A DNA stretch of 7,177 nucleotides from an uncultured Eubacteriales bacterium. GTDB taxonomy: Bacteria > Bacillota > Clostridia > Oscillospirales > CAG-272. Shown here piece by piece: positions 1 through 7,177 of the stretch. The translations under genes were made by a program, and so were the position numbers. Where the stretch lies: NCBI GenBank assembly GCA_949878535.1, contig CATLAS010000040.1, forward strand, positions 1-7,177, given 5' to 3'. Under the pieces are notes generated by a model, which worked only from the letters and a program-made list of their open reading frames with translations, was not told the origin of the DNA and made no database searches. Numbering within the stretch: position 1 is the first letter of the stretch; the number at the start of each line of letters is the position of its first letter.

Positions 1-446
1 CGGAAGAATGTGTTAACGATGCATATCTTGGTACATGGAATTCAATCCCCGATGAAAGACCCAGCTATTTTTCAGCATTCCTTTGCAGAATTGTTCGAAA
101 CTTATCTCTAAAACGATATGAATATGTACACGCCCAGAAACGGAATCCAGGTGTAGTTACCTCTTTGGAGGAATTGTATGAGTGTATTCCCGGAAGCGAT
201 ACTGCCGATGACGGTTTAGGCCCGGAATATGAGGACAATGTTCTGCGAGATACAATCAATCGCTTTCTTGAGATGCTGCATGAAGATGCGCGCAATATTT
301 TCATACGGCGGTATTGGTTCTTTGATCCGATTAAGGAAATCGCCTGCCGTTACGGTATGAGTGTTAGTAAAGTGGATTCTACACTGGTACGAACTAGAAA
401 AAAATTCAAACAGTTTTTAATAAAAGAAGGCTTTTGCGATGAATAA
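1..446 (+). CDS. ECF-type RNA polymerase sigma factor (5' end outside window)
   Basis: Frame 3 is open from the window edge to TAA 444-446, giving 147 residues. The family is usually about 170-180 residues, so roughly the first 30 are missing. The first part (DAYLGTWNSIP, then FLCRIVRNLSLKRYE) matches sigma-70 region 2, which contacts core polymerase and the -10 element. An acidic linker around codons 65-80 follows. The end (FLEMLHEDARNIFIRRYW, then IKEIACRYGMSVSKVDSTLVRTRKKFKQFL) is a region 4 helix-turn-helix for -35 recognition. An ATG at 165 exists, but starting there would remove region 2, so the true start lies upstream of the window. The protein should redirect RNA polymerase to a small regulon, unknown here. 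It is probably co-transcribed with the A2M gene downstream, since no terminator separates them. The family call is firm; the specific ECF group and the stimulus are not known. Confidence 0.9.
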   Translation, partial: EECVNDAYLGTWNSIPDERPSYFSAFLCRIVRNLSLKRYEYVHAQKRNPGVVTSLEELYECIPGSDTADDGLGPEYEDNVLRDTINRFLEMLHEDARNIFIRRYWFFDPIKEIACRYGMSVSKVDSTLVRTRKKFKQFLIKEGFCDE

Positions 447-501
447 ACCGCCGCTTCATAAATATGAATTTCTTTTGCTGACCAGTGAATGCGACATTTA
501 G
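439..501 (+). CDS. possible 20-codon coupling ORF between sigma factor and A2M genes
   Basis: An ATG at 439 overlaps the last 8 bases of the sigma gene and opens a 20-codon frame (MNKPPLHKYEFLLLTSECDI) ending at TAG 499-501. An AGAAGG at 424-429 lies 9 bases upstream, a usable ribosome binding site. The stop falls just before the ribosome binding site of the A2M gene. It could couple translation of the two larger genes or be the relic of a downstream gene start. It could equally be chance, because it is short and I recognise no family. Confidence 0.25.
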   Translation: MNKPPLHKYEFLLLTSECDI

Positions 502-507
502 AAAGGT

Positions 508-513
508 AAGGTG
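508..513 (+). promoter_or_regulatory. ribosome binding site fixing the A2M gene start
   Basis: AAGGTG lies 7 bases before ATG 521, with another AAAGG at 502-506. The in-frame GTG at 485 has no comparable site, so the start at 521 is preferred. Confidence 0.65.
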
Positions 514-520
514 TTACGGC

Positions 521-3500
521 ATGAAAAAGAAAGATATGGACAGAATGATCAGTCTCATCGACGATGAAAAGCTTGCGGCAAGTGAAACGGTCGGAAAGCG
601 TAAAATTCCGTGGAAGCAAATGACGGCTGTTGCTGCCTGTGCAGTAGTACTCCTATCCTCGGTGTTCGTTTTTGCTAAATTACGTACACCCGCCCCGGAA
701 AAACCAGACAGCCCCGTTATAGAAATTCCGGGCGATTCCCCTGCAGAACTGCGGATTTTAAGCACCAGCGCAACTACATATTATTCCTCCAGTCTGATTG
801 CAAACAATACAGAGTTTATGATCCAAACGGAGAATGGCTCAAAGGAGGAACTGGAAAAGTCTGTATACCTGGATCCCCCGGTGGAATATACAATTGAGGA
901 AATCAGCGAGAATGAATTCCTTCTGACGCCTGAAGAATCGTTTCCGGATAATACTGTTATCCGTTTGGCGCAGATTAAAAACGAAAAAGTAACCGACAGT
1001 TGGGCATATCAGACGAAAAATGATCTAACTGTTTCTGAAACCTATCCTCGGGACGGCGCACTTGCTGTTTCGCCGGAAAGTGTTCTGGAAATTGTGCTGT
1101 CCTATGGAGATGTGGAGAATTTTGACGATTATGTTTCCATTACTCCTGAGATTTCCGGCTCTTGGGCACATATTGGAAAAACATGGCGCTTTACACCGGA
1201 TCAGCCGCTGGAAATGGGCACCAGGTACACCGTCAGTATCCGGGAAGGATATCATAATGAAAGCGTGACAAACACAGTGCCCTCCAGTTTTTCTTTTGAT
1301 GTTTTTGACAATGATAAAAAAAACACCGCTTATGAAATTGATCTGTATAGACCCATACACATAACCCGGGATGAAATTTACACCTTCCGCCCTGGGGAAG
1401 CTGTTTCAATTCCGTTTAATCCGATGAAAGATAGGCATGCACAGATTTCACATATCAGTATGGAGCAGCTGTACAGTGCGAAGGATTTTATTGCAAAACT
1501 GCTGGATGAGAATGCACAGGTGGAGAGTACGTCTTTAGGGGATTTGTCTTTCACTTGGCAGAATCTTTCTCTTTGTGGGGAGGCGGAAGATACTGTAGTA
1601 TTTGATGATACGCTGCCGGAAGGCTACTATATTGCCCGTATTTACGATATGGCGGATCGGGAAAGAAGCATAGCTTTTCTCCAGGTAAACTCCATTTCCG
1701 CCTATGCTTTGGAAACGAGGGAAGAAGCCCTGATCTGGGCTGCAAAGGATGGAGCGCTTGCCGAAGGACTTTCGGTAGCTTATGATGAAAAGACGACTGA
1801 AACGGATAAAAACGGGATTGCCCGGTTTGCTCTTTGCGACGGCAAAGAAATGCGCTATGCGACAGTAGGAATGGAAAATCCTCTGGTAATCGGTTTTTCC
1901 AGCTTTGAAGGGGAATGCTTGAACGGATATATTTATACAGACCGACCGCTGTACCATGAAACGGATCTGATTCAAATCTGGGGTTATGTGCCGCCGGAAA
2001 TGCTCCGGGAGGAAAACGCAGAGTTTACCCTTACATTGGGTGACTGGAGAGATGTGGAACAGGAAATCCCTGTTAAACTGGATGAATTCGGTTGCTTTAC
2101 TGCGACCTATCAGCTTTCAGATCATAAGGAAGATACACTGAGCATATACCTGCGCCGGGACGGTGAATACGTGTGTTGGCACGGTGTTGATATTAAAGAT
2201 TATTCCGGACAGTATTATTCTTATGAGTTTCTTCTGGATAAAAATTATATCCGCAATGGCGAAACGCTGGAGTTTGATGTAAAGGTTACGCATTTGAGCG
2301 GGATGCCGGCGTCCGGCAAGCGGGTATATGCAGACGATCTGACTGCGGTAACAGATGAAAGCGGTATTGCACATTTTTCCATGCTTGTTCAGGAAACAAT
2401 GAATGAATCCTTCAGTGGATTTCAGCCTTTCACACGAATGGGAATCCAAATTCGAAACGGCGAGGGCGCAGAATATAATGATCATATCGATTATGCAGAT
2501 GTGTATGTGTTTTATTCCGACATCATCTTGAAAGATGACATAGAAGATTCTCAGTATACAATCAGTGCCTATAAGCTGAATCTGGACAGCGATATATCTG
2601 TATTGGAACCGACAGGCGGCGGAACTTATCTGGACAGCGACAGTGTGATCGCTTTGCTGGGAACACCGATTGATCAGGCAAAGATTACTGCCCGTATGAT
2701 AGAACGCAGATATGATTGGTATGCAAGAGGTTATCGATACAATGAATATACAAAGGAGCATGAACCGGTATACTATCAGGAGAGTGATCCAAAGGATACT
2801 ATCATTCGGGAATGGACACTAACCGGAGAAAACGGCTTCGCAACGATTGATCTCAACGATGTCTCCATGAAACAGCCGGAGGATTTCACCCGATATGTTT
2901 ATGAGATGCAGCTTTTCATCGAAGACAGCAGTGGTTCTCAGTCGGGGAAAAGAATAATCAGGAATACCGGGTACAAAAGTGCTGTCAGCCACGATGGAAG
3001 AGAGAAGAATCCTAATCCCGGGTACATAAAGCTTGATTTACCTTATTGGGGAAACAGAGAATATTCAGTTGATATGCCGTATATCTGTTACGGATACGAA
3101 TTTTCTTTTGATAACAACGATGATGCTTACGCCGGACGAGATTTTTTCGGTGAGACAGTCTCTGTAACGCTGTATGACAAATACCATGAACAGGTCTCTG
3201 ACGGACTGGTTCTCCGCACGCTGCTGCAAAATGATGTGGTCAGCGCGGAGGTTGTCGATCCGGATGCACTTTCCTTTGCTTATCCCGAAAATCTTGTTCC
3301 CAATGCATATTTAGCGGGCGCATATTTTAAAGACGGCGTTTTTCATAGGATTCCGGCTGAGTTGCTGCTTTGTAACGCGAAGGATAACGCTCTTGACGTA
3401 ACGGTTGCAGCCGACAAGGAAACTTACGCGCCTGGCGAAGAGGTGACGCTGGAGCTTGACGTTCGCGATATCCAAGGCAACGGCGTGGCGGCGGAGATCT

Positions 3501-5374
3501 CTGTAAGCGTGGTGAATGAAGCGGTGCTTGCGCTGAGAGAAAATGATGTTAGAATCTTTGAAAATATTTTTAAACATATCGAATACAAGAAATATTTCTT
3601 CTCAACCTATCAGGATCGTACATTGTCCAGAAATCAGGGCGGTTGGGGAGATGGAGGTGCAGATACATTTCGCAGCAATTTTGGTGATACAGCTTACTTC
3701 AAAGCGGTAGTCACCGATGAAAACGGTCATGCTGCAGTGACCTTTAAATTGCCGGATACGGTTACCTCTTATCGGGTGACAGCGCAGGCTGTGAGTCACG
3801 GCGTAAAAGTTGGCGCCGACGTCTCGTCCGTTTGTGTGCAGCAGGACTATTTCATCCAGCATACTGAGCCGATGAATGTAAAGACAACAGATGATCTGGT
3901 GGTAGGCGCGTGCGCCATCGGTGGAGAAGACATTTCTGACTTCACCTTTACACTCAAGGAAACAGGTGCAGAGGTGACAACTTCTGCGGCAGACGCGCAC
4001 ATAGCATACGCCAATTTTGGAAAACTGCCGCTGGGAACTTACACGGTACAAATCCGTGCAGAAAACGGAGAAAAGCAGGATGGTGTGGAATACACAGTGG
4101 AGATTATTTCCACAGCATTGAACGTTCAAACCAAAACAAAAACGAAGGTGGAAGATGGAGAGACGATTTATCCTGCAAAAAATCCTGTGATTATAGAATT
4201 TTGCAACTCGGATATGACCCGGTATCAAGGCTATCTGGATTACTTAATGCTCGAATGGAATGGGCGCCTGGATACACAGATTGTCAGCCGGGAAGCACGT
4301 CTTCTGCAAAATCAGTACCGGGACGAATATAATTATGTTCCTTATTATGACCTGGGAAACTATTTTGTGCATGAGGAGTTCAGCGACACATATCTGCTTG
4401 CTCCCCTGCCGTCGGCGGAACCGGACGTGGTATTCACAGCGCTGGCAGTGTATTATACAGAAATAGGAGGAAAGGGAACCGGCGGGTGGGAATATGCTGC
4501 CACACGTGGAGAGGATCCTTATAAAACAGCGTTGCTTCAGGCAGCCAACCGCAACGCTGTTCTGGTAGATTTGCAGTATCTGGCGTCTCATGCCGAAACG
4601 GACCAGGAGAAACTTTTGATTTCCTTGGCATATGCGTTCTTAGGAGACTATAGAAACGCTGCTGCAAATTATGTGCAAACAAAGGATGAAGATGCTATGA
4701 GCTTGCAAGCGATGGTCGCGACCTTTATTGATCGGGAAAATGCTGCGGCGCTACTGGATGCGCAGATTGCAGCCAATCCCTCTGATTTGTATCTCCGGTT
4801 TGCTGTGCTCTCCTATCTGAAAAACAATACGGAACTGCTGGACACAGAAGAAAGCGTTACGGTTTCCGGAGAGAATTTGCAGGAAACTGTGACAGTAAAC
4901 GGACTGGAAGTGAAGCGAATCGTGGTCAATGCGGACGATTTGTCTGGTATCACATTTACGTCCTCCAGTGAAAATATGGATGTGACCTATTATTATGATA
5001 CCTCTGTTGACAAGCTGAACGGTGATAATGTGAAGCAGGCAATCACAGCATCGCTTTCGGGAGATTTGCACATGAACGGTCAGGTTTTTTTGGAAATTGA
5101 TCTTTCCGGTGTTCCAAAGGAAGCCGGATACGGGCGTTTCACAGTAGCACTGCCCAATAATTTGCGCATGACGTCCGTAAGCTACACAAGGGAATATTCT
5201 GTGGTCAGCAAGCTGGATCATCTGGTAATCTATCTTGGAAAAGACAGACCGGCAAAAATCAGCATTCCCCTTAGCGTTATCTGTGAAGGGTCATATGAAT
5301 TTGAACCGATTGTATATCATTTGGACGAAACGTATTATATTTCACCAGCCTTCACCTATCAGGTGTCGGAATAA
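521..5374 (+). CDS. membrane-anchored alpha-2-macroglobulin family protein with anti-sigma-like N-terminal stub
   Basis: This 1,617-residue protein is in the usual size range of bacterial A2Ms (about 1,500-1,700). Order of parts: charged cytoplasmic stub 1-33; transmembrane helix about 34-53 (MTAVAACAVVLLSSVFVFA); Pro-rich linker 56-75; two bacterial Ig-like (Big_5-type) domains about 74-166 and 168-262; an MG1-like region to about 460; MG2 with YTDRPLY (TDRP at 473-476); further MG domains including DKETYAPGEE at 965-974; a bait-like stretch 1006-1039 with Gly-rich GGWGDGG at 1040-1046; the A2M domain from GDTAYF (1055-1060) through LPDTVTSYRVTAQ (1077-1089); a helical thioester-domain-like region about 1220-1430; and a C-terminal beta region. 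No CxEQ thioester motif is present; the likely equivalent site reads NGRLDTQ (1247-1253). There is no lipobox. Predicted topology is N-inside with a large external part. A2Ms trap or sense proteases. Following an ECF sigma gene, this one may control that sigma factor, which is inference. The start is set by the AAGGTG site. Confidence 0.9.
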   Translation: MKKKDMDRMISLIDDEKLAASETVGKRKIPWKQMTAVAACAVVLLSSVFVFAKLRTPAPEKPDSPVIEIPGDSPAELRILSTSATTYYSSSLIANNTEFMIQTENGSKEELEKSVYLDPPVEYTIEEISENEFLLTPEESFPDNTVIRLAQIKNEKVTDSWAYQTKNDLTVSETYPRDGALAVSPESVLEIVLSYGDVENFDDYVSITPEISGSWAHIGKTWRFTPDQPLEMGTRYTVSIREGYHNESVTNTVPSSFSFDVFDNDKKNTAYEIDLYRPIHITRDEIYTFRPGEAVSIPFNPMKDRHAQISHISMEQLYSAKDFIAKLLDENAQVESTSLGDLSFTWQNLSLCGEAEDTVVFDDTLPEGYYIARIYDMADRERSIAFLQVNSISAYALETREEALIWAAKDGALAEGLSVAYDEKTTETDKNGIARFALCDGKEMRYATVGMENPLVIGFSSFEGECLNGYIYTDRPLYHETDLIQIWGYVPPEMLREENAEFTLTLGDWRDVEQEIPVKLDEFGCFTATYQLSDHKEDTLSIYLRRDGEYVCWHGVDIKDYSGQYYSYEFLLDKNYIRNGETLEFDVKVTHLSGMPASGKRVYADDLTAVTDESGIAHFSMLVQETMNESFSGFQPFTRMGIQIRNGEGAEYNDHIDYADVYVFYSDIILKDDIEDSQYTISAYKLNLDSDISVLEPTGGGTYLDSDSVIALLGTPIDQAKITARMIERRYDWYARGYRYNEYTKEHEPVYYQESDPKDTIIREWTLTGENGFATIDLNDVSMKQPEDFTRYVYEMQLFIEDSSGSQSGKRIIRNTGYKSAVSHDGREKNPNPGYIKLDLPYWGNREYSVDMPYICYGYEFSFDNNDDAYAGRDFFGETVSVTLYDKYHEQVSDGLVLRTLLQNDVVSAEVVDPDALSFAYPENLVPNAYLAGAYFKDGVFHRIPAELLLCNAKDNALDVTVAADKETYAPGEEVTLELDVRDIQGNGVAAEISVSVVNEAVLALRENDVRIFENIFKHIEYKKYFFSTYQDRTLSRNQGGWGDGGADTFRSNFGDTAYFKAVVTDENGHAAVTFKLPDTVTSYRVTAQAVSHGVKVGADVSSVCVQQDYFIQHTEPMNVKTTDDLVVGACAIGGEDISDFTFTLKETGAEVTTSAADAHIAYANFGKLPLGTYTVQIRAENGEKQDGVEYTVEIISTALNVQTKTKTKVEDGETIYPAKNPVIIEFCNSDMTRYQGYLDYLMLEWNGRLDTQIVSREARLLQNQYRDEYNYVPYYDLGNYFVHEEFSDTYLLAPLPSAEPDVVFTALAVYYTEIGGKGTGGWEYAATRGEDPYKTALLQAANRNAVLVDLQYLASHAETDQEKLLISLAYAFLGDYRNAAANYVQTKDEDAMSLQAMVATFIDRENAAALLDAQIAANPSDLYLRFAVLSYLKNNTELLDTEESVTVSGENLQETVTVNGLEVKRIVVNADDLSGITFTSSSENMDVTYYYDTSVDKLNGDNVKQAITASLSGDLHMNGQVFLEIDLSGVPKEAGYGRFTVALPNNLRMTSVSYTREYSVVSKLDHLVIYLGKDRPAKISIPLSVICEGSYEFEPIVYHLDETYYISPAFTYQVSE

Positions 5375-5386
5375 AGGAGTGCGTGC

Positions 5387-5427
5387 AAACATGAAGCAGA
5401 GAAGCATCCTCTGCTTCATGTTTTTTT
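5387..5427 (+). terminator. intrinsic terminator of the sigma/A2M operon
   Basis: A perfect 15-bp inverted repeat (arms 5387-5401 and 5409-5423, AAACATGAAGCAGAG and its complement) with a 7-base loop runs into seven T residues at 5421-5427. It begins 12 bases after the A2M stop codon, so it ends that operon. The A-rich base of the left arm is weaker in the reverse direction, giving at most a partial bidirectional terminator. Confidence 0.92.
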
Positions 5428-5741: not shown

Positions 5742-5794
5742 CAATCCCTCCGTCACAGCAAGCTGTGACACCTCCCTTTACACAAGGGAGGCTT
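5742..5794 (+). repeat. intergenic hairpin repeat, copy B (best preserved)
   Basis: It starts CAATCCCTCC and ends AAGGGAGGCTT. It contains two perfect hairpins: GTCACAGC (5752-5759) with GCTGTGAC (5762-5769), and CCTCCCTT (5771-5778) with AAGGGAGG (5784-5791, 5-base loop). From memory, repeats with these ends are spread between genes in gut Clostridia such as Faecalibacterium relatives; I could not search for this. With copy A it forms an inverted pair of about 149 bases, resembling a non-coding MITE. Confidence 0.7.
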
Positions 5795-5810
5795 AGTGCA
5801 AGAGAAAGGG

Positions 5811-5884
5811 CAATCCCTCCATCCCGCCTACGACGATCCACCTCCCTTATGAGAATTTGCTTCGCGGCTCCATAGGGAGGCTTT
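5811..5884 (+). repeat. intergenic hairpin repeat, copy C (variant)
   Basis: It has the same start (CAATCCCTCC, 5811-5820) and end (AGGGAGGCTT) as copy B and begins 17 bases after it. The first hairpin is lost or replaced by a diverged segment. The terminal CCTCCCT/AGGGAGG stem (5841-5847 with 5874-5880) encloses a longer loop, which can partly pair through ATGAG with CTCCAT. It is a divergent member of the same family. Confidence 0.6.
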
Positions 5885-5994
5885 TAGTCATGACGGAAAT
5901 CTGCGGTATTCCCTTTGAGTCATGCAGTGCATTCTTATATCCTTATAAGGAAAGTTTTTTCGTTTTTACAAAAAGAAGAAATTATCTATTGCTG

Positions 5995-6108: not shown

Positions 6109-6951
6109 ATGTATAAAATAGTTTATAAAAAGAATTTAAACGCTGCTGTCACGATGATGGATATCAACGCGCCTCTGGTTGCAAGAAAAGCGCAGCCGGG
6201 ACAGTTTATTATTTTGCGTGTGGATGAGAATGGTGAACGTATCCCTTTAACAATCGCCGGATATGATCGTGATGGTGGCACTGTGCGGATTATCTTTCAG
6301 GTTGTTGGATCTACTACAGCAAAGCTGAATCAGAAAAGCGAAGGGGAATCCATTGCTGATTTTGTTGGCCCTTTGGGGAAGCCTACACATACCGAAGGAC
6401 TCAAAAAAGTTTGTATTGTCGGCGGTGGTGTGGGATGCGCAATTGCACTTCCAGTAGCGCAGAAGCTTCACGCTATGGGCTGTGAGGTGCATGCAATTAT
6501 CGGATTCCGGAATAAGGATCTCTTAATTTTAGAGGACGAATTTAGAGCTGCTTCCGATCAACTTACGATAATGACAGACGATGGATCTTATGGAAAGCAA
6601 GGCGTTGTAACCGTTCCGCTCAAAGAAGCAATTGAAGCGGGAGAAAACTACGATCAGGTCATTGCCATCGGTCCGCTGATTATGATGAAATTTGTTGTGG
6701 CTACTACCAAACCGTTTGGTGTGAAAACCATTGTGTCTATGAATCCGATTATGATTGATGGTACCGGTATGTGCGGCGGCTGCCGCCTTACAGTTGGCGG
6801 TGAAACAAAATTTGCCTGTGTAGACGGGCCGGATTTTGACGGATTTGCTGTAGACTTTGATGAAGCGATGCAGCGCGGCGCAATCTATCGGGATTTTGAA
6901 AAGCACGCTTACGAAAAAACATGCAATTTATTTTCAAAGGAGGTTGAGTAA
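6109..6951 (+). CDS. nfnA: NADH-dependent ferredoxin:NADP+ oxidoreductase subunit A (NfnA)
   Basis: This 280-residue protein belongs to the ferredoxin reductase/PyrK-like family. It is the small subunit of the cytoplasmic electron-bifurcating NfnAB complex, which couples NADH and reduced ferredoxin oxidation to NADP+ reduction, reversibly. Visible features in order: an N-terminal FAD-binding barrel with RIPLT (44-48); a nucleotide-binding fold with GGGVG (105-109); and a C-terminal [2Fe-2S] site DGTGMCGGC (217-225) plus C237 in FACVDGP. In PyrK the first of these positions is Cys; here it is Asp217, as reported for NfnA, and this together with the gene next door favours NfnA over a dihydroorotate dehydrogenase electron-transfer subunit. 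No pyrD is seen nearby. It has its own promoter and is followed after one base by nfnB, so the two form an operon. The length is normal and nothing appears broken. Such proteins are often annotated as sulfide/dihydroorotate dehydrogenase-like FAD/NAD-binding proteins. Confidence 0.92.
   Translation: MYKIVYKKNLNAAVTMMDINAPLVARKAQPGQFIILRVDENGERIPLTIAGYDRDGGTVRIIFQVVGSTTAKLNQKSEGESIADFVGPLGKPTHTEGLKKVCIVGGGVGCAIALPVAQKLHAMGCEVHAIIGFRNKDLLILEDEFRAASDQLTIMTDDGSYGKQGVVTVPLKEAIEAGENYDQVIAIGPLIMMKFVVATTKPFGVKTIVSMNPIMIDGTGMCGGCRLTVGGETKFACVDGPDFDGFAVDFDEAMQRGAIYRDFEKHAYEKTCNLFSKEVE
6936..6943 (+). promoter_or_regulatory. ribosome binding site that selects the TTG start of nfnB
   Basis: AAAGGAGG, a near-perfect anti-16S match, lies inside the end of nfnA and 9 bases before TTG 6953. 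The first in-frame ATG (6965) is 21 bases away, too far for this site, so the rare TTG is the better start. Confidence 0.8.
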
Positions 6952-6952
6952 T

Positions 6953-7177
6953 TTGGCAGCCAATATGAATCCGAAAAAAAATCCAATGCCGTCTCAGCCG
7001 CCTGAAGTTCGGGCGCGTAACTTTCAGGAGGTAGCTACCGGATATATAAAAGATGTTGCTATGGACGAGGCAATGCGCTGTCTGGGATGCAAACATATGC
7101 CCTGTGTATCCGGCTGCCCGGTAAATATACATATCCCCGCTTTTATAGCCAAAATCAAGGAAGGGGAATTTGAAGAG
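6953..7177 (+). CDS. nfnB: NADH-dependent ferredoxin:NADP+ oxidoreductase subunit B (NfnB), 3' end outside window
   Basis: The first 75 codons are in the window; the full protein is normally about 460 residues. It is the large subunit of NfnAB, homologous to the small subunit of NADPH glutamate synthase (GltD), and is often labelled gltA or NADPH-dependent glutamate synthase. The visible part is the N-terminal iron-sulfur domain. Its motif AMRCLGCKHMPCVSGCPVNIHIP carries C43, C46, C51 and C55 in the pattern CxxCx4CxxxCP, expected to bind a [4Fe-4S] cluster. The FAD and NADPH domains would lie beyond the window. The start is TTG, one base after the nfnA stop, chosen from the AAAGGAGG spacing. 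It is translationally close to nfnA and surely in the same operon. A true glutamate synthase subunit is less likely, because nfnA lies next to it and no large GOGAT gene is seen. Confidence 0.9.
   Translation, partial: MAANMNPKKNPMPSQPPEVRARNFQEVATGYIKDVAMDEAMRCLGCKHMPCVSGCPVNIHIPAFIAKIKEGEFEE

Follow-up and report, generated by a model that had tools for sequence, protein, structure and literature searches.

The sigma factor and alpha-2-macroglobulin genes

The window analyzed here is a stretch of 7177 bases that makes up the entire contig CATLAS010000040.1 (G000:C40) in a 1.2-Mb, 67% complete genome of an uncultured Eubacteriales bacterium. On its forward strand, a 5'-truncated gene for an extracytoplasmic function (ECF) sigma factor is followed, with no intervening gene, by a gene for a large membrane protein of the alpha-2-macroglobulin (A2M) type and then by a terminator-like hairpin. 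The pair is considered below as a candidate sigma factor with a membrane-bound partner that controls it.

The sigma factor open reading frame (ORF), at positions 3..446, scored 51.0 bits against the TIGR02937 sigma70-ECF model (cut-off 42.9) and 35 bits (1.1e-08) against Pfam Sigma70_r4_2 (cut-off 25.7). Its 5' end is lost at the contig edge, so that region 4 and part of region 2 are encoded. The gene is full length in the nearest relatives (loci L004 and L005), and the window protein aligns to residues 44-185 of the L005 sigma factor with 87% identity, around 43 N-terminal residues being absent. Region 2 (44.6 bits) and region 4 (33.9 bits) were both found above the Pfam cut-offs in the L005 protein. 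Based on these two sigma-70 regions, which characterize ECF sigma factors as proteins of ~190 amino acids, the window gene is an ECF sigma factor gene. A search for a second sigma copy in the source genome returned a single distant match, locus L003 (G000:C35), where an ECF-like sigma gene is followed by a one-helix protein of a different stub type; no second A2M copy was found in that genome.

The longest frame of the large protein opens at GTG 485. ATG 521 is probably the better start, as it is preceded by a probable ribosome-binding site (GAAAGGTAAGG, 501..511), and it gives a protein of 1617 amino acids (521..5374). Residues 1-33 (521..619) form a charged stub, predicted to be cytoplasmic and to act as a sigma-binding (anti-sigma) module, and are followed by a single hydrophobic membrane helix predicted by hydropathy at residues about 34-52 (620..676; the helix start at 46 from the GTG corresponds to 34 from ATG 521). 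The remainder is the ectodomain, in which three Pfam domains were above cut-off, namely an Ig-like Big_5 domain (residues 167-259, 1019..1297, 29.7 bits), the bait-region domain A2M_BRD, PF07703 (residues 877-1005, 3149..3535, 31.1 bits) and the A2M domain PF00207 (residues 1058-1130, 3692..3910, 40.4 bits), while MG2 was under its cut-off. By position, a Gly-rich segment at residues about 1012-1049 (3554..3667) would be equivalent to the bait region. At the position of the thioester domain, the AlphaFold2 model, analyzed with DSSP, predicts an alpha-helical domain without a CxEQ motif (residues about 1230-1434, 4208..4822). For residues 446-1617, Foldseek and VIA found solved A2Ms that match the predicted fold along its length, with 5a42 as the top Foldseek match (E 5.3e-45). 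Thus, the large protein belongs to the A2M superfamily.

The best Foldseek matches are the A2Ms of E. coli and Salmonella (PDB 5a42, 4ziq, 4u48), which share only ~12% identity with the window ectodomain and which, unlike it, are Type I proteins with a thioester, encoded with PBP1c rather than with a sigma gene (PMC5764988). No CxEQ thioester motif was found in the 1617 residues, which excludes a Type I assignment, and among 66 relatives (P0001-P0066) there is one such string, in P0017 at 1159. As read from its sequence, with a bait segment and no CxEQ, the window protein is of Type II. It shares both features with MagD, the Type II A2M of Pseudomonas aeruginosa. MagD differs from it in lacking a predicted membrane helix and a lipobox and in being encoded in a six-gene operon for which the available part of the source mentions no sigma partner (PMC5764988). 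A sequence-only reading of this DNA had described a complete external A2M. The predicted fold is indeed complete, although it lacks the thioester motif, and the external placement is a prediction. The same reading had seen no lipobox, whereas a lipobox-like VAAC string is present at the helix start and was also flagged in close relatives. A lipoprotein is still unlikely, since VAAC opens the helix, with hydrophobic residues after it, and 14 of the 18 stub proteins compared also have AAC in their helices; the lipoprotein reading was rejected on these grounds.

The hairpin that closes the unit (5387..5423) has 15 pairs followed by T's, with -22.4 kcal/mol and a z of -5.5. In L005, tRNA-like sequences and another hairpin were seen by eye 5' of the sigma gene, and so the sigma and A2M genes look like a unit of their own. 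The ORFs, the Pfam and TIGR02937 matches, the hydropathy and the hairpin thus bear out the gene order and shared unit of the sequence-only reading. A separate anti-sigma gene, which would have spoken against its regulatory proposal, was not found between the two genes, and the next gene past the hairpin encodes an oxidoreductase subunit.

Recurrence of the pair across genomes

A scan of genome contigs gave 75 loci, to which family loci were added, and 99 loci had an A2M ORF of >500 amino acids. After removal of 25 loci without a usable 5' end, of L079 and L080 (repeat contigs) and of L058, L063 and L082 (split frames), 69 loci remained. A tail was defined as long when the helix starts at residue 33 or later and as short when it starts earlier. 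An ECF sigma gene lies directly upstream in 23 of 34 long-tail loci versus none of 35 short-tail loci (Fisher p 2e-10, uncorrected for kinship and with L016 and L023 being near copies). As a control, a sigma gene is found directly upstream of 3 of the 543 other ORFs in the loci from the genome contig scan, compared with 23 of the 69 A2M loci, and the pairing is more than chance. An order-level search, in which some species overlap with the first set, yielded 28 usable loci. Of these, 12 are paired according to hidden Markov models and 15 are unpaired, and in L152 a sigma-like gene is present that is degenerate and scores under the cut-off. All 13 (the 12 and L152) have charged tails, as judged by eye.

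Within the 295 family genomes, a sigma gene of >=87% identity occurs in two, the next best match having 54%. The A2M is found at >=90% in the same two genomes, and its next full-length relative (G277, 31%) is also paired. In the protein database, equal lengths of the longest contig suggest that the A2M relatives P0002, P0003, P0004 and P0006 lie on the same contigs as the sigma relatives P0125, P0130, P0129 and P0128.

A FastTree phylogeny was built from 62 ectodomains, after seven rows that were incomplete or highly divergent had been removed. It requires 7 changes of pairing, at least 6 of which are forced by starred branches. Thirteen independent comparisons could be made between two rows of unequal tail length. 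In 5 or 6 of them the sigma gene changes in the same direction as the tail, in none does it change in the opposite direction, and in the other 7 or 8 there is no difference in the sigma gene (sign test, p 0.03-0.06). As an example, L009, without stub and sigma gene, sits inside a clade of ten in which the other nine are paired, and L051, with a signal peptide-like start and no sigma gene, is the sister of the paired L055. Paired loci were found in Bacillota, with several tail types, and in Uhrbacteria and Peregrinibacteria, while the unpaired ones on the tree include seven Saccharibacteria loci and Bacilli loci. The ECF-A2M pairs of Uhrbacteria and Peregrinibacteria (L042, L050, L055, L076) have tails of other sequence. 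In the Saccharibacteria loci (L012, L015, L020, L022, L024, L027, L028), the A2M is of the same family (~30% identity) and carries a hydrophobic anchor, and there is no sigma partner.

Stub homologues and promoter motifs

The stub and helix (70 amino acids, without the sigma gene) were also searched on their own against the 295 family genomes, and matches were obtained in 37, source genome included. Counting the matches given with a locus, weaker ones without a locus being left out, the stub occurs in 28 non-A2M places. An ECF sigma gene immediately precedes 27 of these; in the remaining one, L124, the match is limited to residues 22-58. The ectodomains of these stub partners are unlike A2M, the seven that were scanned being two beta-propellers and five proteins without family. 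Around an IDD-like core, the stubs of these proteins and those of the A2Ms can be aligned with few gaps, and the first D of this core is kept in 30 of the 33 aligned stubs (by eye). The converse search considered 18 sigma paralogues (L203-L220), which were the best sigma matches given as loci outside the two carriers; L215 coincides with L119 of the stub search. A stub-helix protein follows the sigma gene in all 18, at -3 in 16 cases. At E 1e-35, sigma relatives are present in 218 of the 295 genomes, often several per genome. Taken as a group, L104-L134 and L203-L220 form a large stub family with an IDD-like core, directly after ECF sigma genes and with exchangeable ectodomains. The sequence-only reading had proposed that an absence of conserved pairing in related genomes would refute its regulatory link; the stub places and the long-tail A2M loci both passed this check.

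No Pfam model was above cut-off on the stubs scanned, and DUF4179, which aligns to window residues 27-52 with 12.7 bits (cut-off 30.1), cannot be assigned. A regular expression for the stub core had hits in 19 of 26 partners, in 2 of 7 stubs from A2Ms and in 32 of 595 controls, and was dropped since its spacing was too strict. With 33 residues before the helix, the stub is not a class I anti-sigma domain (ASDI), which is a four-helix domain; the source that describes it set aside domains of <50 residues because they may belong to class II (PMC7406223). In class II domains, of the CnrY type, two helices embrace sigma2 and sigma4 (PMC4598750).

The promoter scan covered the loci from outside the candidate phyla. 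In eight divergent relatives with MDNNELDK-like tails, and in the near copy L023, a GAAC-N19/N20-TCTAA motif lies 58-161 bases 5' of the called sigma start. All 8 counted loci have this motif, versus 1 of 65 other ORFs there, and 1000 shuffles gave a mean of 0.055 of 8 with a maximum of 2, although these shuffles are not a blind test because the motif was found by eye in the same sequences. A second motif, TGAAACC-N-CGTCTTA, was seen close to the start of the sigma gene in four more of the paired loci (L029, L162, L163, L164). It coincides with the called start in L162 and L164, where that start is probably over-called. L141 has only a weak motif. Transcription of the gene pair by its own sigma factor is thus probable in relatives, and the response would then make more A2M.

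Single sites of the promoter pattern were also seen 60-70 bases before an adenylation-domain gene in L190, whose product has TIGR01733 as its best curated match and is below the cut-offs of the DltA models, and 60-70 bases before the gene for a family-less membrane protein in L178. As such sites are at the level of the control counts, neither gene is claimed as a regulon member.

Further features of the window were recorded downstream of the pair. Positions 6109-7177 hold two genes with similarity to a ferredoxin-linked oxidoreductase or glutamate synthase, namely to its NAD-binding and iron-sulfur parts. A dispersed intergenic repeat at 5745-5885, similar in appearance to repetitive extragenic palindromic (REP) elements or miniature inverted-repeat transposable elements (MITE), has 51 matches, including itself, in the 1.2-Mb partial genome, mainly over its first 50 bases. 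Rfam has no family for this repeat, and PADLOC gave no match.

A proposed sigma factor circuit and its alternatives

Based on these observations, we consider it probable, at about 0.7, that the window encodes an ECF sigma factor together with its transmembrane anti-sigma factor, in which the A2M ectodomain serves as the sensor. A conserved downstream gene on the same strand, whose product has a short N-terminus, a single helix and an ectodomain, is characteristic of a transmembrane anti-sigma factor, and the A2M gene has all of these features, with the orientation in the membrane predicted. Since the stub resembles those of proteins encoded directly after ECF sigma genes, the outer part likely senses something outside the cell.

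Proteins of this general layout have been studied. In Thermoanaerobacter tengcongensis, the ECF sigma gene of Tt-RpoE1 is directly followed by that of Tt-TolB, a protein with 39 residues ahead of its single helix and a large ectodomain. Two-hybrid tests showed that this short stub binds the sigma factor, and inhibition and autoregulation were seen in vitro (PMC3397946). The likeness is one of layout, and the Tt-TolB ectodomain is TolB-like instead of an A2M. In Bacillus subtilis, SigV is held by the single-helix anti-sigma factor RsiV, the nearest functional analogue, the ectodomain of which is a receptor for an outside enzyme; RsiV is destroyed by two cuts once lysozyme binds, and the operon is induced when active (PMC5014341). 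RsiV differs from the window protein in having DUF4163/DUF3298 in place of an A2M and in binding lysozyme (PMC5014341). The class of anti-sigma architecture is therefore already known. No description of an ECF sigma-A2M pair was found in the searches of open-licence PMC papers, within which the A2M ectodomain and its repeated pairing appear to be undescribed.

In the circuit that we infer, from topology, stub-sigma binding and inhibition to proteolytic steps, signal and targets, the stub would bind the sigma factor inside the cell at rest and keep it at the membrane. The trigger would be a change in the A2M part, most likely when a protease cleaves or occupies the bait region. This would make the stalk accessible to cleavage outside the cell, and subsequent cleavage within the helix by a site-2 protease would free the sigma factor. 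The freed sigma factor would then transcribe its own pair, adding more A2M.

Several observations weigh against this reading or lend it nothing. The A2M loci without a sigma gene are in the majority (46 of 69), and 11 of the long-tail loci are unpaired, including apparent over-called starts and low-complexity tails. Of the nine genomes listed for the genus, two have the A2M gene and seven, several of them incomplete, do not. The proposal of the sequence-only reading, that the A2M gene encodes the anti-sigma factor or sensor of the preceding sigma gene, gains from the comparative counts that associate stub and sigma factor and loses from this uneven occurrence. The MDNNELDK-type stub was found, in the genomes of nine relatives, on A2M copies only, and the sharing of a stub with other ectodomains is therefore shown just for the stub type of the window. 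When sigma factor and stub were modeled by AlphaFold2 as a joined chain, the stub was not placed and had a predicted local distance difference test (pLDDT) score of 39-46, by which no docking is supported. Neither promoter motif was found in L004, L005, the stub-only loci or eight more of the paired loci from the order-level search. The promoter of the window pair itself lies beyond the contig edge, and across seven genomes the promoter pattern gave 26 sites versus 37 for the reversed pattern, that is, no enrichment. A site-2 protease gene is present in the source genome, but it tells little because all 14 control genomes have one as well. Finally, the bait-equivalent segment is not hypervariable (mean majority identity 0.52 versus 0.50 for the whole protein), which, along with the absent thioester, argues against classical protease trapping.

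This last point is also what makes it quite possible, if short of an even chance, that the anti-sigma architecture is the same and that the A2M part responds to a non-proteolytic cue, such as a ligand, wall fragments or cell contact, after which the stalk would be exposed to signal peptidase. The near absence of CxEQ among the relatives and a bait segment conserved like the rest of the protein fit such a cue, and in RsiV the binding of a ligand sets off site-1 cleavage (PMC5014341). MagD, however, still traps protease non-covalently without a thioester (PMC5764988), and for this reason the loss of the thioester does not exclude protease sensing.

It is improbable that the A2M is an effector only, with the sigma factor controlling its production and the stub being a plain anchor that does not bind sigma. 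The ECF-type promoter motifs before some pairs would fit a sigma-driven operon of this kind, and 35 of the 69 loci indeed encode a short-tailed A2M, of the plain-anchor or signal-peptide kind, and lack a sigma gene. A mere anchor, though, would not need to be shared with unrelated ectodomains, beta-propellers included, that are encoded after ECF sigma genes, nor would its tail need to co-vary with the sigma gene in every independent pair where both differ. We give still less credit to the stub protein being a membrane tether or positive co-factor of the sigma factor. The comparative data give an association and no sign, and would be compatible with it, but membrane proteins encoded after ECF genes are usually inhibitors. 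Moreover, Tt-TolB, the nearest proven case of the same layout, inhibits its sigma factor in vitro (PMC3397946). A chance neighborhood is hardly credible: the rarity of the A2M gene in the genus could be read in its favor, yet the control ORFs and the repeated changes of pairing on the tree refute it at the family level.

Within the preferred reading of a sigma factor with an A2M-bearing anti-sigma factor, a more specific version can be put forward only tentatively, and we regard it as rather unlikely in full. In it, a protease trap would have become an alarm, the outer A2M being both sensor and product of the ECF sigma circuit, so that attack on the bait by a host or rival protease frees the sigma factor and causes further A2M to be produced. 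This coupling would have been assembled repeatedly, in Clostridia and in candidate phyla, through the joining of A2Ms to different sigma-binding tails.

Bacterial A2Ms are generally regarded as defense proteins. If the regulatory reading is true, the recurrent link between A2Ms and ECF sigma factors would mean that proteolysis or surface contact outside the cell is sensed with the fold that animals use in A2M and complement, and the role of an A2M without thioester would become directly testable with a reporter. In addition, the window draws attention to a large stub family, in which short modules that partner sigma factors carry exchangeable ectodomains.

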